Source: Candidatus Stahliibacteriota bacterium (lineage in GTDB: Bacteria; Hydrothermota; Tepidihabitantia; SM23-42). Taken from it: DNA of 41,500 bases. The notes under the pieces were generated by a model. That model was not told where the DNA came from. It saw only the letters and a program-made list of their open reading frames with translations, and did no database searches. Below are positions 18,781-37,543 of the stretch, in pieces (the stretch's first letter is position 1; every line of letters begins with the position of its first letter). The position numbers and the translations under genes were made by a program. The stretch spans positions 1 through 41,500 of the forward strand of contig JAUVZL010000019.1 of NCBI GenBank assembly GCA_030602565.1, in the 5' to 3' direction.

Positions 18781-18854
18781 TATCAAACCCCGGTCTGCTC
18801 ACGCAGAGCGGGGCTTGATCGGGCAATCCAGAAATAAAATCTTCCATTTTCTAT

Positions 18855-18907
18855 GGATCATCCGGTTAAACCGGATGATGACATGAAAGTAAACCGGACG
18901 ATGACAC
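18855..18907. repeat. ATGACA-family palindrome, tandem copies
   Basis: Stem ATCATCCGG / CCGGATGAT around ttaaa, then gacatgaaagtaa and a second half-unit ACCGGACGATGACACC. Confidence 0.78.
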
Positions 18908-18938
18908 CTTGAACTTATGACGTTCATTGTTCGGCTCT

Positions 18939-19166: not shown

Positions 19167-19269
19167 TGGCTTGACCAGGGAATCCAAATTCCTGGATCAT
19201 CCGGTTAAACCGGATGATGACATGAAAGTAAACCGGATGATGACACGAAAGTAAACTGGATGATGACAA
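19161..19269. repeat. ATGACA-family palindromes, mixed tandem block
   Basis: ATTCCCTGG-cttga-CCAGGGAAT (about 19161-19185) is followed by ATCATCCGG-ttaaa-CCGGATGAT-gaca and two further half units separated by gaaagtaaa. An almost identical block occurs at 31676-31872. Confidence 0.78.
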
Positions 19270-19325
19270 AATGAAGGGGTTATTGCCTGACTCACCACTT
19301 GTCATTGCCCGATTCCGGATTTTTA

Positions 19326-19368: not shown

Positions 19369-20781
19369 ATGAGAAAATTCGATTATACTTCACCGGAAAT
19401 AGGACCAAAAGTAAAAAAATTGATTGAGCGGGATAAAAAAATCATGTTTGGCGCTCACACCAGAACCCAAGAAATACCTTTGGGAGTTGATTATGCAAAA
19501 GGCGCACGCATAACTGACCTTGACGGCAAAACATACCTGGATTTTGGTGCTGGTTTTGCGGTAGTCGGCACTGGCCACTGTCATCCCGAGGTGATCAAAG
19601 CAGCAACTGAGCAAATGCAGAAATTGATTCATATTTCAGGTTGCGACTTTTATTATGAATCCCAGGTTGAACTCGCGGAAAAGCTCTTTGAAATATGCCC
19701 GGGAGACTTTGAGAAAAGAGTGTATTTTGGCAATTCCGGCGTTGAAGGTATTGCAGCAACTTTGAAGATCGCACGTCACTACACACGACGACCCCGTCTG
19801 ATCAGTTTTCTGGGCGCGTTTCACGGCAGAACCTTTGCCGGCATGACGATGTCAGGCAGCAAGAAGATCCAACGCGCCCATTTCTCGCCTTTAATACCCG
19901 AAGTAACCCACATACCTTATCCCTACTGCTTTCACTGCATATTCAACGAAACATATCCCAAATGCGTGAGAAAAGAATTCGATGGTTTACCAATGCCCTA
20001 CTGTCTCTCATACTTGACCGAGGTCATGTTTGAACGTCTTGTTGACCCAGAAGACGTTGCCCTGATTCTCGTTGAACCTATCCAGGGTGAAGGCGGCTAC
20101 ATTATACCACCCAAAGAGTTCTTGCCAGCACTGCGCAAGATCGCAGACAAATTCAATATCTTGCTTGCCTTTGATGAAATTCAGTGCGGCATGGGCAGAA
20201 CAGGCAAGTGGTTTGCCTGTGACCACGTTAATGTGATCCCGGATATCATTATCATTGCCAAGGCAATTGCCTCGGGCTTTCCGATGAGTGCCACGGTGAG
20301 CCGCGCTGAGCTCCAGGACCCTGAAATCGATGAACGTGCCTGGCAACCTGGTGCGCACGGTTCAACTTTTGGTGGTAACCCGGTCATCGCAGCAGCCGCT
20401 GTAGCTTCTTTAAAAATCATTGAAAATGGCTTGATTGAAAATGCCGCAGAGGTTGGTGCTTTTCTCAAAGCGGGGTTTATTGAAATTATGGATCGCCACC
20501 AGATAATCGGTGAAGTACGCGGTCAGGGTTTAATGATTGGTTTTGAATTGGTAAAAGATAAGAAGACGCGCGGAGCCTTGCCGAGGGTAATTACGAATAA
20601 CGGCAAGAATATTAAAGAAGTCATTACTGGTGAGTGTTTCAAGCGTGGGTTGATCGTCTATGGCGCTGGATTCAATTCAATTCGCATATCACCGCCCCTT
20701 ATTATAACCAAAGATGATGCAGCAGAAGCTTTGAAAATAATTGACCAGGTTATTACGTTTGTGGAGAGTCAGTTATTATGA
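19369..20781 (+). CDS. Class III aminotransferase (GABA aminotransferase / amino-acid racemase-like)
   Basis: 470 residues, longer than typical acetylornithine aminotransferases. The PLP-binding Asp is D269 in AFDEIQCG, and the Schiff-base Lys is K298 in IAKAIASGF. The insert PYPYCFHCIFNETYPKC (about 183-199), with three cysteines, and the N-terminal extension resemble the thermophile/archaeal GABA-aminotransferase-like group, whose studied Pyrococcus/Thermococcus members include broad-range amino-acid racemases and ornithine or omega-aminotransferases. Substrate is therefore open. AAGGAG precedes ATG 19369. It overlaps the next gene by 4 bases (ATGA). Confidence 0.85.
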   Translation: MRKFDYTSPEIGPKVKKLIERDKKIMFGAHTRTQEIPLGVDYAKGARITDLDGKTYLDFGAGFAVVGTGHCHPEVIKAATEQMQKLIHISGCDFYYESQVELAEKLFEICPGDFEKRVYFGNSGVEGIAATLKIARHYTRRPRLISFLGAFHGRTFAGMTMSGSKKIQRAHFSPLIPEVTHIPYPYCFHCIFNETYPKCVRKEFDGLPMPYCLSYLTEVMFERLVDPEDVALILVEPIQGEGGYIIPPKEFLPALRKIADKFNILLAFDEIQCGMGRTGKWFACDHVNVIPDIIIIAKAIASGFPMSATVSRAELQDPEIDERAWQPGAHGSTFGGNPVIAAAAVASLKIIENGLIENAAEVGAFLKAGFIEIMDRHQIIGEVRGQGLMIGFELVKDKKTRGALPRVITNNGKNIKEVITGECFKRGLIVYGAGFNSIRISPPLIITKDDAAEALKIIDQVITFVESQLL

Positions 20782-22118
20782 TAAATCCGGGTATTTTCCG
20801 CGAATACGATATAAGAGGCATTGCTGATACTGACCTTACTGATGAGAATGTTTATGAGTTTGCCCGTGGTGTCGGGACTTATTATCGAAACCTCGGTGAG
20901 ACAAAAGTCATTGTGGGCCGCGATGTCAGGATATCTTCACCGAGAATTTCTGAAACAATCCAAAAAGGCCTCATGGAATCAGGCTGCAGTGTAATAGATA
21001 TCGGTGAAGTACCAACACCATTGCTATATTTTTCATTGTTTCACTATAATATCGGCAACGGCGTAGTGATAACGGCCAGTCACAACCCAAAGGAATTCAA
21101 TGGCTTTAAAGTGTGCCGAAACAAGACTACCATATACGGCGCCGAAATACAAAAAATTAAATACATTATCGAAAAAGGAGAGTATACATCAGGTAACGGC
21201 GATAGCGAACAACTCGACGTCATACCTACGTATATCGATTACGTAACTGACCACCTGAAGATACAACCTGGTTTGAAGATAATCATCGACACAGGTAATG
21301 GTACATGCGGTCCAATCATTGACCAAATCATGACCAGGATAAAAGCAAGCTATGAAATATTGTTTAAGGAACCTGACGGCAACTTCCCAAACCACTTAGC
21401 TGACCCGACCGTAGTGGAACATATCTCAACTTTAATTAATAAGGTCAAGGATAATGACGTTGCGTGCGGCATTGGTTTTGACGGCGATGGCGATAGGATT
21501 GGTGTAATCGATGAAAATGCTGGAGTTATCTGGGGCGATGTGCTGCTTGCAATATATGCCGAAGATGTTTTGAAGCGCATGCCTGGCGCCAAGATAATAT
21601 TCGAGGTAAAATGCTCTAAAGGATTGATTGAGCGCATCGAAGAATTGGGTGGTATACCCCTCATGTACAAAACAGGTCACTCTTTGATCAAAGCCAAAAT
21701 GAAGGCTGAAAACTCGCCACTTGCTGGTGAGATGTCAGGACACGTATTTTTTGCCGACCGCTACTATGGATTTGACGACGCAATATACGCAAGTCTGCGC
21801 CTTTTAGAAATAATAAGCAACGGCAATAAACTGTCCGAGCTTGCTGCAAGAGTACCTAAGTATTTTGCAACACCTGAGATCCGTATTGAAACGACCGATG
21901 AGAAAAAATTCAAAATCGTTGAAAAATTAAAGGCAGAGCTCAGTGGGTCGTATAAAATAATAGACATCGATGGAGTTAGAGTGGATTTTCCAGACGGTTG
22001 GGGTTTAATAAGAGCATCAAATACCCAACCGGTTCTCGTCTTAAGATTTGAAGCAAAAACAAAACAAAGACTTGAGGAAATCAGAAATCTGTTTTTTGAT
22101 AAATTGGATGAGCTATGA
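20778..22118 (+). CDS. Phosphomannomutase/phosphoglucomutase
   Basis: 446 residues. Alpha-D-phosphohexomutase that moves phosphate between C1 and C6 of hexoses. The phosphoserine loop is TASHNP (99-104, active Ser 101), the metal site DGDGDR (235-240), and the sugar loop GEMSGHVFF (about 315-323). The C-terminal phosphate-binding domain ends with RASNTQPVLVLRFEA. This is the PMM/PGM (AlgC/ManB-like) subgroup rather than GlmM, which carries a different sugar loop. Translationally coupled to the aminotransferase gene, with no obvious metabolic reason. A palindromic repeat begins 6 bases after the stop. Confidence 0.92.
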   Translation: MINPGIFREYDIRGIADTDLTDENVYEFARGVGTYYRNLGETKVIVGRDVRISSPRISETIQKGLMESGCSVIDIGEVPTPLLYFSLFHYNIGNGVVITASHNPKEFNGFKVCRNKTTIYGAEIQKIKYIIEKGEYTSGNGDSEQLDVIPTYIDYVTDHLKIQPGLKIIIDTGNGTCGPIIDQIMTRIKASYEILFKEPDGNFPNHLADPTVVEHISTLINKVKDNDVACGIGFDGDGDRIGVIDENAGVIWGDVLLAIYAEDVLKRMPGAKIIFEVKCSKGLIERIEELGGIPLMYKTGHSLIKAKMKAENSPLAGEMSGHVFFADRYYGFDDAIYASLRLLEIISNGNKLSELAARVPKYFATPEIRIETTDEKKFKIVEKLKAELSGSYKIIDIDGVRVDFPDGWGLIRASNTQPVLVLRFEAKTKQRLEEIRNLFFDKLDEL

Positions 22119-22123
22119 CTCCT

Positions 22124-22269
22124 CACCCCTGAAACAATACTGAAATGATATTCAGCACAAGGTTCAGGGCAGGCTCTAACCCTCTCCTCAGAGAGGAGAG
22201 GGGATTTAAGTGAAGTACTCTCCTCCATTTCCTCTCCCTTTTCAAGGGAGAGGATGAAGGTGAGGGTTG
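22124..22269. repeat. CCTCACCC...GGTGAGGGTT palindrome, copy A
   Basis: Bounded by CTCCTCACCCCTG and ATGAAGGTGAGGGTT. Inside are CTCTCCTC-aga-GAGGAGAG and CCTCTCCCTT-ttc-AAGGGAGAGG hairpins, joined by ggatttaagtgaagt. This long form recurs, expanded, on both sides of the DUF559 gene at 36656-37543. Confidence 0.8.
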
Positions 22270-24085: not shown

Positions 24086-24106
24086 AAAATAGTAAGCAAT
24101 AAGTAC

Positions 24107-24196
24107 TTTTCGTACTCGTAGATCGTAAGTCGTATTCGTTATAATTTAATATTACGAGCACGAAAAACGAATTACGAATACGGTTCCAATCTTTGG
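24107..24196. repeat. GTATTCGT/ACGAATAC element, copy 2 (left arm of an inverted pair)
   Basis: 24131-24196 is the near-perfect reverse complement of 26141-26206, including the flank GGTTCCAATCTTTGG; weaker identity continues left to about 24107 (TTTCGTACTCGT). The pair encloses exactly ebfC and dnaX. Confidence 0.85.
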
Positions 24197-24606: not shown

Positions 24607-26094
24607 CTATCTTACTTCCTCACCATCAAACAGATCCTTAATGGCTTCAGCGAGGTTGTTTTTCTTTTCTTTCTGTTCGGTCATATCAATAGTAAGTGTG
24701 AACTCCCCAGGCAATAAGTTTTTCAGGGCGGATTCAAGTGCTTTCTTGTTTTCCTCTAATTGTCTTCTGGAAAAATCACTTTTAGCAGAAATAATGACAT
24801 CCTTGCCACTTTTGTTGAAGTCAGCATCGCAGACAATCCCCGCGAGCTTAGGGCTAAAGCTCTGCACTCTTTCAAACAACTTCTCCTTCAGGTTAACTTT
24901 GCCTTCTGGGTTTGTTGTACTCTTTTCATTACTCGTTTCGCGCGCCGACCCTGCCGAACTGCTGAGACCGAATACTAATCTGCTGAAAAGCAGTTCCATC
25001 ACAACCCTCACATTAATCGACATTTTAACCATTTCCTCAAATCTGAGACATATTTCAAGCATTGCGGTTAATTTTTTACGTCCCAATTCTATCTTTTCTA
25101 AACCGGCGATCTCATCATCGCTCAACTCAACGAATTCATCAGGCAATCCAGTCTTAACAAGAAAAACGGCGCGCAGATAACTGGTGAATCCCCGGTATAT
25201 CTCAACCGGATCGGCACCATCTTCAATGCCTTTGTTGAGCAGTAATATTACCTGTCTCAGGTCTCCTGCCAATACTTGCTCAAGGATTTTGAGATAGAAA
25301 CTACTTCCCAAGAAGCCGATCAATTTAAATACATCATTCTCTGTAATCTCGCCCTCGACAAATGATGATAGCTGCTCAAGGATACTCTCTCCATCACGAA
25401 TGCTGCCATCTGCTCTTACTGCGAGATAATGCAATGCATTTGATGTTATCTTAATGTTTTCCTGATTAGCAATTGATTTGAGGCGTGCTGATATTTCTTT
25501 TAACGAAAGCCGCTTAAATACAAAACGCTGACATCGTGATAGGATTGTACTCGGTATTTTCATTGGATTGGTCGTGGCGAATATGAAAACGACCTTGGCT
25601 GGAGGTTCTTCCAGTGTTTTGAGCAGGGCATTAAACGCCGCCTCGGTCAACATGTGCACTTCATCGATAATATAAATCTTGTAACGACCGTGTAAGGGGG
25701 AGTATCTGACACCCTCCCTTAAGCTGCGTATCTCATCAATACCTCTGTTCGATGCACCATCGATCTCGATAACATCAATGTTTCTGCTGAGCGTTATTTC
25801 CTTACAAGACTGGCATTCTTGACAGGGATGAATAGTTGAACCCTCTCTGCAATTTAGACTCTTAGCAAGGATGCGTGCGGTGGTGGTTTTGCCAACGCCG
25901 CGTGGTCCTGCGAAAAGAAAGGCATGCCCAATACGACCACTTTTGATTGCTCCTTTTAGAGAACGTAGAATATGACTCTGCCCGGTCAACTCATCAAAAT
26001 CTTGGGGGCGATACTTCAATGAAATTACGCGATGAGAAATAATAACCTCACTATGTTCGGTAAGAACCAAATCCTCCCGCTTTGCGGGATCCAC
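24607..26094 (-). CDS. dnaX: DNA polymerase III subunit gamma/tau
   Basis: 495 residues. Clamp-loader ATPase of the replisome. Walker A GPRGVGKT (63-70), a four-cysteine zinc module (about 79-95), Walker B IIDEVHML, and sensor SRC in TILSRCQRF are all visible. The C-terminal tau-like part is short. The start is uncertain: GTG 26094 has AGGA 6 bases upstream, but homologues usually begin at VISLKYRPQDF (about residue 23), so the first 20 residues may be an extension. A hairpin ATCCCGC-aaa-GCGGGAGGAT covers the early codons. Preceded by the SRP RNA gene, as in many bacteria. Confidence 0.95.
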   Translation of the reverse strand: MDPAKREDLVLTEHSEVIISHRVISLKYRPQDFDELTGQSHILRSLKGAIKSGRIGHAFLFAGPRGVGKTTTARILAKSLNCREGSTIHPCQECQSCKEITLSRNIDVIEIDGASNRGIDEIRSLREGVRYSPLHGRYKIYIIDEVHMLTEAAFNALLKTLEEPPAKVVFIFATTNPMKIPSTILSRCQRFVFKRLSLKEISARLKSIANQENIKITSNALHYLAVRADGSIRDGESILEQLSSFVEGEITENDVFKLIGFLGSSFYLKILEQVLAGDLRQVILLLNKGIEDGADPVEIYRGFTSYLRAVFLVKTGLPDEFVELSDDEIAGLEKIELGRKKLTAMLEICLRFEEMVKMSINVRVVMELLFSRLVFGLSSSAGSARETSNEKSTTNPEGKVNLKEKLFERVQSFSPKLAGIVCDADFNKSGKDVIISAKSDFSRRQLEENKKALESALKNLLPGEFTLTIDMTEQKEKKNNLAEAIKDLFDGEEVR

Positions 26095-26140: not shown

Positions 26141-26230
26141 CCAAAGATTGGAACCGTATTCGTAATTCGTTTTTCGTGCTCGTAATATTGGATTATAACG
26201 AATACGATCTATGAGACACGAGTACGAAAT
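26141..26230. repeat. GTATTCGT/ACGAATAC element, copy 3 (right arm of an inverted pair)
   Basis: Reverse complement of copy 2. The remaining part of 26095-26379 shows no gene; a TATAAT on the minus strand at 26113-26108 may serve dnaX, but no matching -35 at 16-17 bp was seen. Confidence 0.82.
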
Positions 26231-26379
26231 GTATTTGGTGCTTGGATTTCGATATTCAAATTTGTTTAGCATTTAGGATTTCGAATTTAGTATTTGCATA
26301 CATGACTATAATATTACTGTCCTAATAACATTAGCATTACTTTTATACACCCGGTCTTCTTTTATTGCAGAGTAAGTTC

Positions 26380-28975: not shown

Positions 28976-29178
28976 AACCCTCACCCTTTCCCTCTCCCTT
29001 AAAAAGGGAGAGGGTGTATTAATTGGTCACTTTCCTCTCCTCTCTGAAGAGAGGATTCACCCTGTGTAATAAAAGAATGATTTTATGCAAAAAGAAATAG
29101 AAATAACCGAGCTACCTTAAATATTGTGAAACGATATTCATAAATTGTATTACACGGGGTAAAGGTGAGGAGTTCATT
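28976..29178. repeat. CCTCACCC...GGTGAGG palindrome, copy D (diverged)
   Basis: Starts AACCCTCACCCTTTCCCTCT, contains CCCTCTCCCTT-aaa-AAGGGAGAGGG (about 28988-29016) and CTCTCCTCTC-tga-AGAGAGGA, and closes with GTAAAGGTGAGGAG near 29158-29173. TGTGTAATA (29074) and TGTATTACACGG (29145) add further inverted matches. Separates two divergent genes. Confidence 0.65.
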
Positions 29179-31602: not shown

Positions 31603-31971
31603 CAAATGAATCCCGCTCATCTGCGATGGGCGTGGATGAATTCAAATGCTTAATTTCAAATTGGGATTTCTCTGCATCATCCGGTTAAACCGGATGATGA
31701 CACGAAAGTAAACCGGATGATGACACGAAAGTCAAGCTGGATAATGACACTGTCATTCTTATCCAATCTACCCGACTCCCCTTATGCCTGCCCCGCTTGC
31801 CACTTCTGTCATTCCCTGGCTTGACCAGGGAATCCAAATTCCTGGATTATCCAATCAAGTTGGATAATGACAAAACGAAGGGGTCATTGCCCGACAAGCC
31901 TGTCCTCTGACTTGATCAGGGGAATCGGGCAATCCAGAAATAAACTCTTTCCTTTTCCCTGGATCATCCGG
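31603..31971. other. Gene-free block of ATGACA-family repeats
   Basis: Tandem palindromes at 31676-31750 (ATCATCCGG/CCGGATGAT units separated by cacgaaagt) and 31811-31872 (CATTCCCTGG/CCAGGGAATC then ATTATCCAA-tcaag-TTGGATAAT) with a fragment of the 18.9-kb tandem repeat (about 31777-31800). No gene supported. Confidence 0.75.
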
Positions 31972-31990
31972 TTAAACCGGATGATGACAC
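31961..31990. repeat. ATGACA-family palindrome forming the 3' end of the ABC-F gene
   Basis: ATCATCCGG-ttaaa-CCGGATGAT-gaca. Read on the minus strand it encodes the last residues CHHPV and the stop codon (31974-31972) of the ABC-F gene. Confidence 0.82.
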
Positions 31991-35736: not shown

Positions 35737-36010
35737 GCTCAATGAATTGCCTGCCTGTGCCGGAACCACGGCAGACAGGAGCAACTACAAAGGGAGCGGT
35801 TCAATAAATTGAACAACTACAAGGGGAACACCGTCAATAAATTGCCTGCCTGTGCCGGAACCACGGCAGACAGGAGCAACTACAAAGGGAGCGACTCAAT
35901 AAATTGAGCAACTACAAGGGGAGTGTTCTCAATGAATTGCCTGCCTGTGCCGGAACCACGGCAGACAGGAACAACTACACAAGAGAAAAGAGCCAATAAA
36001 TTGGCAGACT
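35737..36010. repeat. Connector-hairpin array (CAACTACAA family)
   Basis: Head-to-tail small hairpins, each followed by the connector CAACTACAA(A/G)GG. Short units carry NNCAAT-aa-ATTGN'N' stems that co-vary: TTCAAT/ATTGAA (35800-35813), CTCAAT/ATTGAG (35895-35908), GCCAAT/ATTGGC (35991-36005). Long units contain an inserted CCTGCCTGTGCC...GGCAGACAGG hairpin and occur three times (about 35737, 35834, 35928). A further GTGCGGGG hairpin lies at about 36033-36058. Confidence 0.85.
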
Positions 36011-36077
36011 ACAAAAAGGTACTTCTCGATGCCCCCGCACTTTTGCAAAAGTGCGGGGTTACTCGAAGGATAAAATA

Positions 36078-36282: not shown

Positions 36283-36585
36283 ATGGACCTAAAACAATAC
36301 CAAGTACTAATAAAACAAATATATTTTAAAAAAGATTCTTCAAGGGGGATTAGTAAAACCTTTAACTGGCTGGTCGAGGAGATCGGTGAACTTGCGCGCG
36401 CCATAAGAAAAGGCGAACGCAAGAAAATCAAGGAGGAATTTGCTGACTGTCTCGCCTGGCTCCTTTCAGTCGGTTCAATCCTAAAAATCGACGCTGAAGA
36501 GACAATGGAAAAATACTCGAACGGATGCCCGAAATGCGGGAAAAGTCCGTGTGAGTGTGAGGAAAATCGTATTCGTGATGCGTAA
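36283..36585 (+). CDS. MazG-like nucleotide pyrophosphohydrolase with C-terminal zinc knuckle
   Basis: 100 residues. An all-alpha NTP pyrophosphohydrolase: EEIGELARAI (31-40) and EEFADCLAW (50-58) give the paired acidic metal-binding motifs (ExxE and ExxD). A CPKCGKSPCEC cysteine cluster (about 81-91) probably binds zinc. Such single-domain proteins remove non-canonical NTPs or act in stress responses. No good ribosome binding site is visible; a weak TTGAGT-16-TACAAC pair lies at 36205-36232. It sits between two large repeat clusters, and remnants of another gene begin 20 bases after its stop. Confidence 0.82.
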   Translation: MDLKQYQVLIKQIYFKKDSSRGISKTFNWLVEEIGELARAIRKGERKKIKEEFADCLAWLLSVGSILKIDAEETMEKYSNGCPKCGKSPCECEENRIRDA

Positions 36586-36604
36586 AAGAATAAAGAGCTT
36601 TACA

Positions 36605-36655
36605 GATCTTGATAGTGTACTAAAGGACATTTTGAACACAGTGGAGAAACTATGA
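36605..36655 (+). pseudogene. Truncated 3' end of a DUF559 endonuclease gene
   Basis: Encodes DLDSVLKDILNTVEKL followed by TGA, nearly identical at DNA level to the last 16 codons of the DUF559 gene at 37280-37330. In both places the stop is followed at the same distance by CTCCTCACCCTAACCC. Only the tail of the gene is left. Confidence 0.8.
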
Positions 36656-36979
36656 CTCCTCACCCTAACCCTCTCCTCAGAGAGGAGAGGGGATTTAAGT
36701 GAAGTGCTCTCCTCCATTTCCTCTCCCTTTTCAAAACAGAGGATTCTCTACTCTATTTCCTCTCCCTTTTCAAGGGAAACGCACATACTCCATTTTCTCT
36801 TCCTTTTCAAAACAGAGGATTCTCCACTCTATTTCCCTTCCCAAGGAAGAGTTACCATACTCCATTTCCTCTCCCTTCTCAAAACAGAGGATTCTCCACT
36901 CTATTTCCCTTCCCAAGGAAGAGTTACCATACTCCATTTCCTCTCCCTTTTCAAGGGAGAGGATAAAGGTGAGGGTTAA
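36656..36979. repeat. CCTCACCC...GGTGAGGGTT palindrome, copy B (expanded)
   Basis: Begins CTCCTCACCCTAACCCTCTC and ends AAAGGTGAGGGTTAAA. The middle is expanded by a 72-bp tandem duplication (AAAACAGAGG at 36809 and 36881) alternating CCTCTCCCTTTTC with partner-less or matching arms. Open frames across it are repeat translations. Confidence 0.85.
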
Positions 36980-37330
36980 ATCAATAAAAGACTAAAAATT
37001 CACAGAGCACGCCAATTACGCAAAGATATAACAGATGCCGAAAGAAAATTATGGAGTAAATTAAGGAATAGACAATTAGCAAATCTTAAATTTAGACGAC
37101 AAGTCGCAAAAGGCCCATATTTCCTCGATTTCTGTTGTCCTGAGAAAAATTTAGTCATTGAAGTAGACGGCGGTCAACATTATGCAGAGGAAAGACAATC
37201 GTGTGATAGAACTCGCGATAAGTACCTTAAGCAACTCGGTTTGAAGGTAGTTCGATATTCAAATAGAGATGTTCTGTTGGATCTTGACAGTGTATTAAAA
37301 GATATTTTGAATAAAGTGGAGAAATTATAA
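36980..37330 (+). CDS. DUF559-family endonuclease-like protein without a canonical start codon
   Basis: 116 codons, complete by family length (about 115-125). The frame runs from just after an in-frame TAA (36977-36979) to TAA 37328-37330. Residues LRKDITDAERKLWSKLRNRQL, FRRQVAKGPYFLDFCCPE, LVIEVDGGQH and LGLKVVRYSNRDVL are the hallmarks of DUF559 (PD-(D/E)xK, related to very-short-patch repair nucleases), with the acidic Asp, Glu and Asp plus His in place. There is no ATG, GTG or TTG before the domain; ATC 36980 or ATT 36998 would have to start it, or it has lost its start. GTGAGGG, part of the repeat, lies 5-8 bases before ATC. It is directly flanked by copies B and C of a palindromic repeat. 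Confidence 0.8.
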   Translation: MNKRLKIHRARQLRKDITDAERKLWSKLRNRQLANLKFRRQVAKGPYFLDFCCPEKNLVIEVDGGQHYAEERQSCDRTRDKYLKQLGLKVVRYSNRDVLLDLDSVLKDILNKVEKL

Positions 37331-37543
37331 CTCCTCACCCTAACCCTCTCCTCAGAGAGGAGAGGGAACTATGATGGAGTAATCTCCTCAGAGAGGAGAG
37401 GGAACTATGATGGAGTAATCTCCTCAGAGAGGAGAGGGAACTATGATGGAGTAATCTCCTCAGAGAGGAGAGGGGATTTAAGTGAAGTGCTCTCCTCCAT
37501 TTCCTCTCCCTTTTCAAGGGAGAGGATGAAGGTGAGGGTTAAC
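37331..37543. repeat. CCTCACCC...GGTGAGGGTT palindrome, copy C (expanded)
   Basis: Begins CTCCTCACCCTAACCCTCTC and ends GAAGGTGAGGGTT. It is expanded by a 36-bp tandem unit, CTCCTC-aga-GAGGAG plus GGGAACTATGATGGAGTAAT, starting at 37348, 37384, 37420 and 37456. The last copy continues into the standard ggatttaagtgaagtg sequence. Confidence 0.87.

Follow-up and report, generated by a model that had tools for sequence, protein, structure and literature searches.

Standalone DUF559 nuclease genes and their flanking BoxC-type palindromes as a probable mobile system in many bacterial phyla

Standalone genes of the DUF559 family and BoxC-type palindromic repeats probably constitute one mobile system (we place this reading at roughly 0.7), in which the DUF559 protein, a nuclease of the PD-(D/E)XK type, is most likely the dedicated mobility enzyme of the repeats. 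Knowledge of BoxC or triplex repeats in E. coli dates back to the 1990s; they are present in hundreds of genomes and are tied to genome rearrangement, and we know of no origin established for them hitherto. The DUF559/YcjD family is widespread and has a solved structure, and to our knowledge no function has been established for it. The locus under study lies in a 41,500-nucleotide stretch of a Candidatus Stahliibacteriota genome (the window), of which a preliminary description had proposed that the nuclease gene and its palindromes form one unit, a counterpart to the RAYT-REP system. This proposal is supported by the enrichment of the repeat at the flanks of the gene in many phyla and by its greater abundance in genomes that carry a standalone DUF559. 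Because the gene is bracketed in many phyla by a repeat that is also scattered through the genome, DUF559 is so far the strongest candidate for the enzyme that spreads it.

The window locus exhibits the order given in the preliminary description, namely a remnant DUF559 tail (36602-36655), repeat block B (36657-36979), a full standalone DUF559 frame (36980-37330, plus strand, 116 codons from stop to stop) and repeat block C (37332-37542). The reading frame of the remnant spans 36575-36655 on the plus strand, where DNA alignment and translation place the residues (V)MRKRIKSF in fusion with the tail TDLDSVLKDILNTVEKL and its stop, and it is 85% identical over 110 nt to the DNA at 37280-37332. 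Its 3' part is clearly DUF559, as had been stated, yet the piece is perhaps not a simple 5' truncation: judging from the sequence, its eight N-terminal residues are possibly the original start, which would make it the product of an internal deletion. Block B begins with the right-hand repeat of the remnant (36657-36690, head CCTCACCC and hairpin) and ends with the repeat on the left of the full gene (36940-36977, with the motif on the minus strand at 36955-36975 and the head GGTGAGGG towards the gene), and degenerate 72-nt tandem units lie between these two end repeats. Block C opens at 37332 with the right-hand repeat of the full gene (head CCTCACCC and hairpin), continues from 37347 with three identical 36-nt tandem units and finishes with a closing copy on the minus strand (37518-37538). 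The copies that flank the full frame are C-rich palindromes facing inward. Each of the two DUF559 stops is immediately followed by the same repeat start, CTCCTCACCCTAACCC, and the full frame opens right behind GGTGAGGGTTAA, at the very end of block B; both details had been described correctly. The stretch CTATGACTCCTCACCC is common to 22113-22128, at the end of the ORF 20778-22118, and to 36650-36665, at the end of the remnant; either these bases belong to the repeat unit or the insertion of a repeat replaced the stop codon of the gene. Farther upstream, at 35739-36023, three tandem units of ~95 nt (TCAATGAATTGCCTGCCTGTGCCGGAACCACGGCAGACAGG...) are located closely 5' of a MazG-like ORF (36283-36585).

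The window frame matches Pfam family PF04480 with E=1.5e-34 and 118.6 bits, against a curated cut-off of 20.6, and its conserved E..D..ExD..H residues are all intact; in the alignment of the family, the E and the ExD are invariant and the D and H nearly so. Its AlphaFold model (pLDDT 89) has a Vsr-like nuclease fold, and the best PDB matches obtained with Foldseek are 3HRL (E=2e-9) and the homing endonuclease 3R3P (1.6e-3), the latter being the EDxHD enzyme I-Bth0305I, which is also related to DUF559 by profile (E=5e-5). No ATG, GTG or TTG is found at the 5' end of the frame, the first being a TTG at 37241, past the catalytic core; the codon at 36980 is ATC, as it is at that place in a copy from the same genus (L254). 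For want of a canonical start codon the window gene may be poorly expressed or dead. The dN/dS of 0.28 between the frame and L254 indicates, despite the uncertain translation start, that it has experienced selection, and purifying selection on the gene is seen in dN/dS values of 0.12-0.36 where defined. The relationship of DUF559/YcjD to the mismatch endonuclease Vsr and the PD-(D/E)XK nature of the family were already known (PMC1189080), a DUF559 domain is carried by VsrA of Caulobacter (PMC12907096), and an intein with a DUF559/EDxHD nuclease has been reported (PMC9403480). The fold and the invariant acidic residues are common to DUF559, YcjD, 3HRL, Vsr and I-Bth0305I, but Vsr acts in mismatch repair and is linked to methyltransferases, and I-Bth0305I is a mobile-intron protein, unlike the repeat-bracketed DUF559. 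Among the papers retrieved, none ties a standalone member of the family to a repeat. In Neisseria gonorrhoeae, a DUF559 gene related to 3HRL (L144) has similar GTCC(C/T)CTCTCCCTGTGGGA hairpins upstream and ~190 bp downstream.

The repeat also occurs by itself. The motif searched for comprises a 9-nt head, 3 nt, a left stem arm of 9 nt, a loop and the right arm, for example CCCTCACCC TAA CCCTCTCCC; its sites in the window are at 691, 764, 1168 and 28978 and, on the minus strand, at 22246, 36955 and 37518, and the gene-adjacent copies at 36657 and 37332 are two-mismatch variants of it. The lone palindromes previously seen at 762, 22124 and 28976 are real, and two extra copies of another variant were found. 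On the plus strand, 764-797 combines CCCTCACCCTAACCCTCTCCC with a hairpin, which is the BoxC/TM core, 28978-29013 combines CCCTCACCCTTTCCCTCTCCC with a hairpin, and the extra copies (691-724 and 1168-1201) carry the variant CCCTCCCCTTTATCCCCTCCC with a hairpin; a comparison of variants shows that in relatives the form at 691 makes up the right end of DUF559 elements. The copy at 22120-22268 is a REPIN-like pair, two inverted repeats at short distance, which sits at the stop codon of the ORF 20778-22118 and is made up of the head CCTCACCC, two hairpins and the closing head GGTGAGGG. In the whole genome of the organism, 58 copies of the degenerate motif contrast with none of the reversed pattern. 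The genome contains one standalone DUF559 gene, together with one DUF559 domain within a frame of 1229 aa, and the position of this sole standalone gene between two copies, along with the 58 versus 0 count, argues against chance. The solo pairs of this genome comprise five with heads out, three with heads in and one tandem, which are small numbers. No Rfam family matches the repeat.

Other features of the window are of a different kind. At 18853-18916, 19192-19278, 31672-31735 and 31924-31989, copies of another palindrome family (CATCATCCGGTTAAACCGGATGATGACA) adjoin TGCCTGCCCCGCTTGTCCC repeats; this second family is not related to the repeat of DUF559. An inverted repeat of 103 nt (88%; 24094-24196 and 26141-26243) surrounds a minus-strand ORF of 495 aa (24607-26094), which is possibly a further mobile unit. 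Rfam also yields a tRNA match of 113 nt on the plus strand (955-1067) that ARAGORN does not call; an insertion of ~36 nt (CATCTCATCTCGCTATTCGCGAGCTTCGATATCTAATGAG) is visible by eye in the region of the anticodon loop, and the match is possibly an intron-containing or broken bacterial tRNA.

The arrangement seen in the window is repeated across bacteria. By inspection of the standalone DUF559 genes in 30 relatives, the order in most is hairpin, 3-5 nt, GGTGAGGG-like head, gene, CCCTCACC-like head and hairpin. Several of the ORFs extend into the repeat, giving C-termini such as ...ISPSPLSPPIKGGE; the preliminary description was thus right that DUF559 ORFs contain translated repeat, which lies mostly at their C-terminal end. 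Eighty further DUF559 loci were taken from GTDB genomes with the organisms named. For 77 loci from more than 10 phyla, the upstream flank was aligned to the reverse complement of the downstream flank and compared with 200 random intervals of the same locus; the flanks are inverted repeats at p<=0.01 in 60 and at p<=0.05 in 66 of them. An inward-facing motif lies within 200 bp downstream in 40/77 and upstream in 36/77 (degenerate motif, one mismatch, hairpin required), compared to 0.0086 copies per 200 bp farther away, although many of the loci come from metagenome-assembled genomes and the counts rest on a single degenerate pattern. The exact motif is found downstream of 23/76 DUF559 genes and 9/1407 other ORFs, and on both sides of 16/76 and 0/1407, respectively, so that the enrichment of palindromes around DUF559 genes over other genes, which the preliminary description had named as the check on its proposal, is strong and extends over many phyla. 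The random-interval and other-ORF controls rule out chance or an intergenic bias as the cause of the flanks.

The association is a property of the standalone genes. In the genomes of relatives, 30 of 47 standalone DUF559 genes have the motif at their flanks when one mismatch is tolerated, as does only 1 of 20 long DUF559 proteins of other architecture, and the view that the repeats accompany any DUF559 domain is rejected on this ground. Genes for Y1 transposases of the RAYT/TIRYT type in the same genomes are flanked by the motif in 0/43 cases when it is exact and in 1/43 with one mismatch, yet 25 of the 43 have inverted repeats of their own, which indicates that the flank test is able to detect such repeats. 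The number of repeats also follows the gene. Where a strong standalone DUF559 is present, 21 of 44 genomes have at least five copies of the motif, compared with 12 of 155 where it is absent (Fisher p=1e-8; phylogenetically confounded), with means of 13.9 and 1.2 copies; the repeats are therefore not equally common in genomes that lack the gene, an outcome that would have spoken against the proposal. About half of the sampled DUF559 genomes contain fewer than five copies. Conversely, six genomes (G101, G186, G098, G051, G013 and G002) have 12-31 copies and no standalone DUF559 that could be found, among them G101, which is 100% complete and has 25 copies; in repeat-rich genomes of this sort (G101, G186, G098) the enzyme was lost or something else is used. 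The solo repeats match the end variant of the resident gene in the genome of the window, in G197 and in G086, but this correspondence fails in G023, G009 and G021, where most solos are of another variant.

The unit of ~430 bp moves. In a genome from the order of the window (G023), the interval between atpG and atpD is 487 bp long and encloses a complete unit, whereas in two genomes that share a genus with it (G024 and G026) the interval measures 15 and 48 bp and is without any repeat, the atpD fragment being 97 and 95% identical. The gene and both repeats must consequently have come or gone together. Units at unrelated sites (L043/L060, L046/L051, L080/L090 and others) share DNA homology that covers the gene and both hairpins and stops at the outer hairpin base, and one genome (G151) harbors two copies that share 90% identity along 573 bp and whose surroundings are unrelated. 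The empty site and the similar copies in unrelated flanks support the mobility implied by the preliminary description. Transfer across phyla is also apparent, in that a supported clade unites DUF559 copies of Thiobacillus, Gallionella and a myxococcote. No target-site duplication is found at the outer ends, where direct repeats average 2.14 in length compared to 2.13 after permutation, and the unit does not conform in this respect to a classical DDE insertion sequence.

The ends of the unit have an architecture of their own. The head of the repeat mirrors the sequence of the left stem arm, and all nine of nine possible purine-motif triads (G*GC, A*AT, T*AT) can be formed in 77 of 140 flank hairpins (55%), as opposed to 5.7% when heads are swapped between loci. 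This covariation of head and stem across phyla points to selection for folding into an intrastrand triplex, or at the minimum for mirror symmetry. Three G/C-rich blocks, short loops and the possibility of purine-motif triads are precisely the features of the BoxC/PIT/intrastrand triplex motif TM, with which the repeat is identical and whose class II purine-motif triplex fits the covariation (Holder et al. 2015, PMC4666352). In vitro, the E. coli motif is known to form a triplex, and triplex motifs have been linked to genomic instability (PMC4666352). Many units have ends of different variants, for example CCCCCACCTTTATCCTCCCCC on the left and CCCTCCCCTTTATCCCCTCCC on the right, which recalls the pairing of type A and type B among the triplex motifs of E. 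coli (PMC4666352).

The most likely mechanism can be outlined as follows. The unit of ~430 bp, taken as autonomous, consists of a hairpin, 3 nt, a GGTGAGGG-like head, DUF559, a CCCTCACC-like head, 3 nt and a hairpin, and the scattered solo repeats and REPIN-like pairs would be its non-autonomous derivatives. Each end of the unit may fold on one strand into a hairpin with the head laid back on the stem, forming an intrastrand triplex. The Vsr-like PD-(D/E)XK nuclease would recognise the folded end and nick beside it near the foot of the hairpin, for example while replication forks expose the end as a single strand; through repair or strand transfer, the unit or a solo repeat would then enter a new intergenic site with no target duplication. 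We infer that the triplex or hairpin is the substrate of DUF559 and that the enzyme acts in trans on solo repeats. We know of no lone PD-(D/E)XK nuclease that suffices as a transposase.

Alternative explanations assign the enzyme a different part. DUF559 could be a homing-type selfish nuclease gene that cuts repeat-related sites and is copied into them by recombination between the flanking repeats, these being landing pads that were spread by other means. The homology to I-Bth0305I and the existence of an intein with such a nuclease (PMC9403480) fit this idea, and the inverted repeats around the gene could act as recombination arms. We nevertheless consider it unlikely, mainly because the empty atpG-atpD sites of the same genus have no repeats at all, so that gene and repeats arrived or were lost jointly; in addition, the number of repeats per genome tracks the presence of DUF559, and homology between units ends at the outer rather than the inner end of the repeat.

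A rather smaller likelihood is given to DUF559 as a housekeeping nuclease of repair or structure processing that cleaves the triplexes of the repeats, in which case co-occurrence would reflect need and the flanking repeats would regulate expression of the gene. The tie between triplex motifs and genomic instability (PMC4666352), the kinship of YcjD with Vsr (PMC1189080) and the DUF559 domain of Caulobacter VsrA (PMC12907096) are in line with such a role, which is possible yet leaves the mobility of the unit unexplained: it does not call for a ~430-bp unit that passes between phyla, turns up in a new gap within an operon and has the outer hairpin base as its limit, and the fewer than five copies in about half of the sampled DUF559 genomes also weigh against it. 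It is least probable of all, and indeed highly improbable, that the repeats owe their movement to RAYT/IS200-like tyrosine (HUH) transposases encoded in these genomes, with DUF559 as a passenger. There are 13 Y1_Tnp genes in the genome of the window, and TIRYT elements possess TIRs, some palindromic and some with a GGGGWSAS motif (PMC3733652), but mobilisation by RAYT/TIRYT enzymes is rejected on the flanks of the 43 Y1_Tnp loci, with their near absence of the motif and their own inverted repeats in 25, and bracketing as regular as that observed across phyla is not expected of a passenger.

A mobile DUF559-repeat unit would resemble the REP/RAYT REPtrons in several respects: a small enzyme gene, of which a genome usually has one or a few, is placed between inverted palindromes, many solo copies and REPIN-like pairs are intergenic, and an unpaired head motif adjoins one hairpin foot. 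The differences lie in the components. DUF559 lacks HUH/Tyr and is a nuclease of the Vsr-like PD-(D/E)XK type, as its model indicates, and a HUH/Y1 transposase flanked by this repeat, which would define a REPtron, was not encountered with the exact motif among the 43 Y1 loci. At its foot the hairpin carries a GGTGAGGG-like head (GGTGGGGG, GGGGAGGG), mirror-symmetric to the stem, in place of the GTAG head of REPs or a GTAC tag. The system is thus most likely akin to REP-RAYT in logic and unrelated to it in both enzyme and repeat. CGTC-tagged REPs are likewise tagged palindromes with no known dedicated transposase, but differ in tag and stem (PMC3733652). Both the repeat, as BoxC/PIT/TM, and the protein family are known; what is new, in the literature searched, is the link between DUF559/ycjD and the repeat. 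Holder et al. found no mobility genes near the BoxC/triplex repeat (PMC4666352), and the full-text searches, whose coverage leaves out most subscription papers and all preprints, brought up no association of DUF559 or ycjD with repeats.

The connection extends to E. coli, in which ycjD is a DUF559 gene. Its 3' side bears a degenerate copy and a BoxC copy, and no repeat is found on its 5' side, which is the sap terminator. In a rank-spread sample of complete E. coli genomes, BoxC copies number 11-27 where ycjD is present (median 19, n=37) and 1-19 where it is absent (median 4.5, n=22), a contrast that runs in the expected direction and is confounded by phylogeny, since phylogroups differ in ycjD. 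Phylogroups A, B1 and C have the gene, as do ST69 and ST182, and in B2, D, E, F and G the eef operon takes its place (PMC12817139). A simple empty site at ycjD is therefore rejected, because strains without the gene have eefRABCD there (PMC12817139), and a clean insertion is not readable at this position. Real presence/absence of BoxC between strains is seen at gldA-yijF and wzxC-wcaK (L145 and L149 of E. coli KE47 versus L165, L166 and L167), but the alternative alleles are REP/BIME or diverged sequence, so that junctions cannot be defined to the base. At these two intervals some strains have BoxC and others REP/BIME or neither, as if BoxC and REP/BIME used the same intergenic slots. The BoxC copies of KE47 are of the CCCTCACCCTAACCCTCTCCC-hairpin form, with a core identical to that of the window copy at 764.

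A wider formulation, to which we give even odds, is that these units represent a pan-bacterial class of mobile elements whose sole enzyme is a Vsr-like PD-(D/E)XK nuclease of ~115 aa recognising a hairpin or intrastrand triplex, that a large proportion of bacterial genomes received their BoxC-type repeats from this class, and that ycjD of E. coli is its living or fossil representative. The link between DUF559 and BoxC offers both the repeat and the protein family a role that can be tested in E. coli K-12. It would add an enzyme class, the lone PD-(D/E)XK nuclease, to the ways in which small DNA elements spread, and possibly also a class of substrate, namely folded triplex ends.
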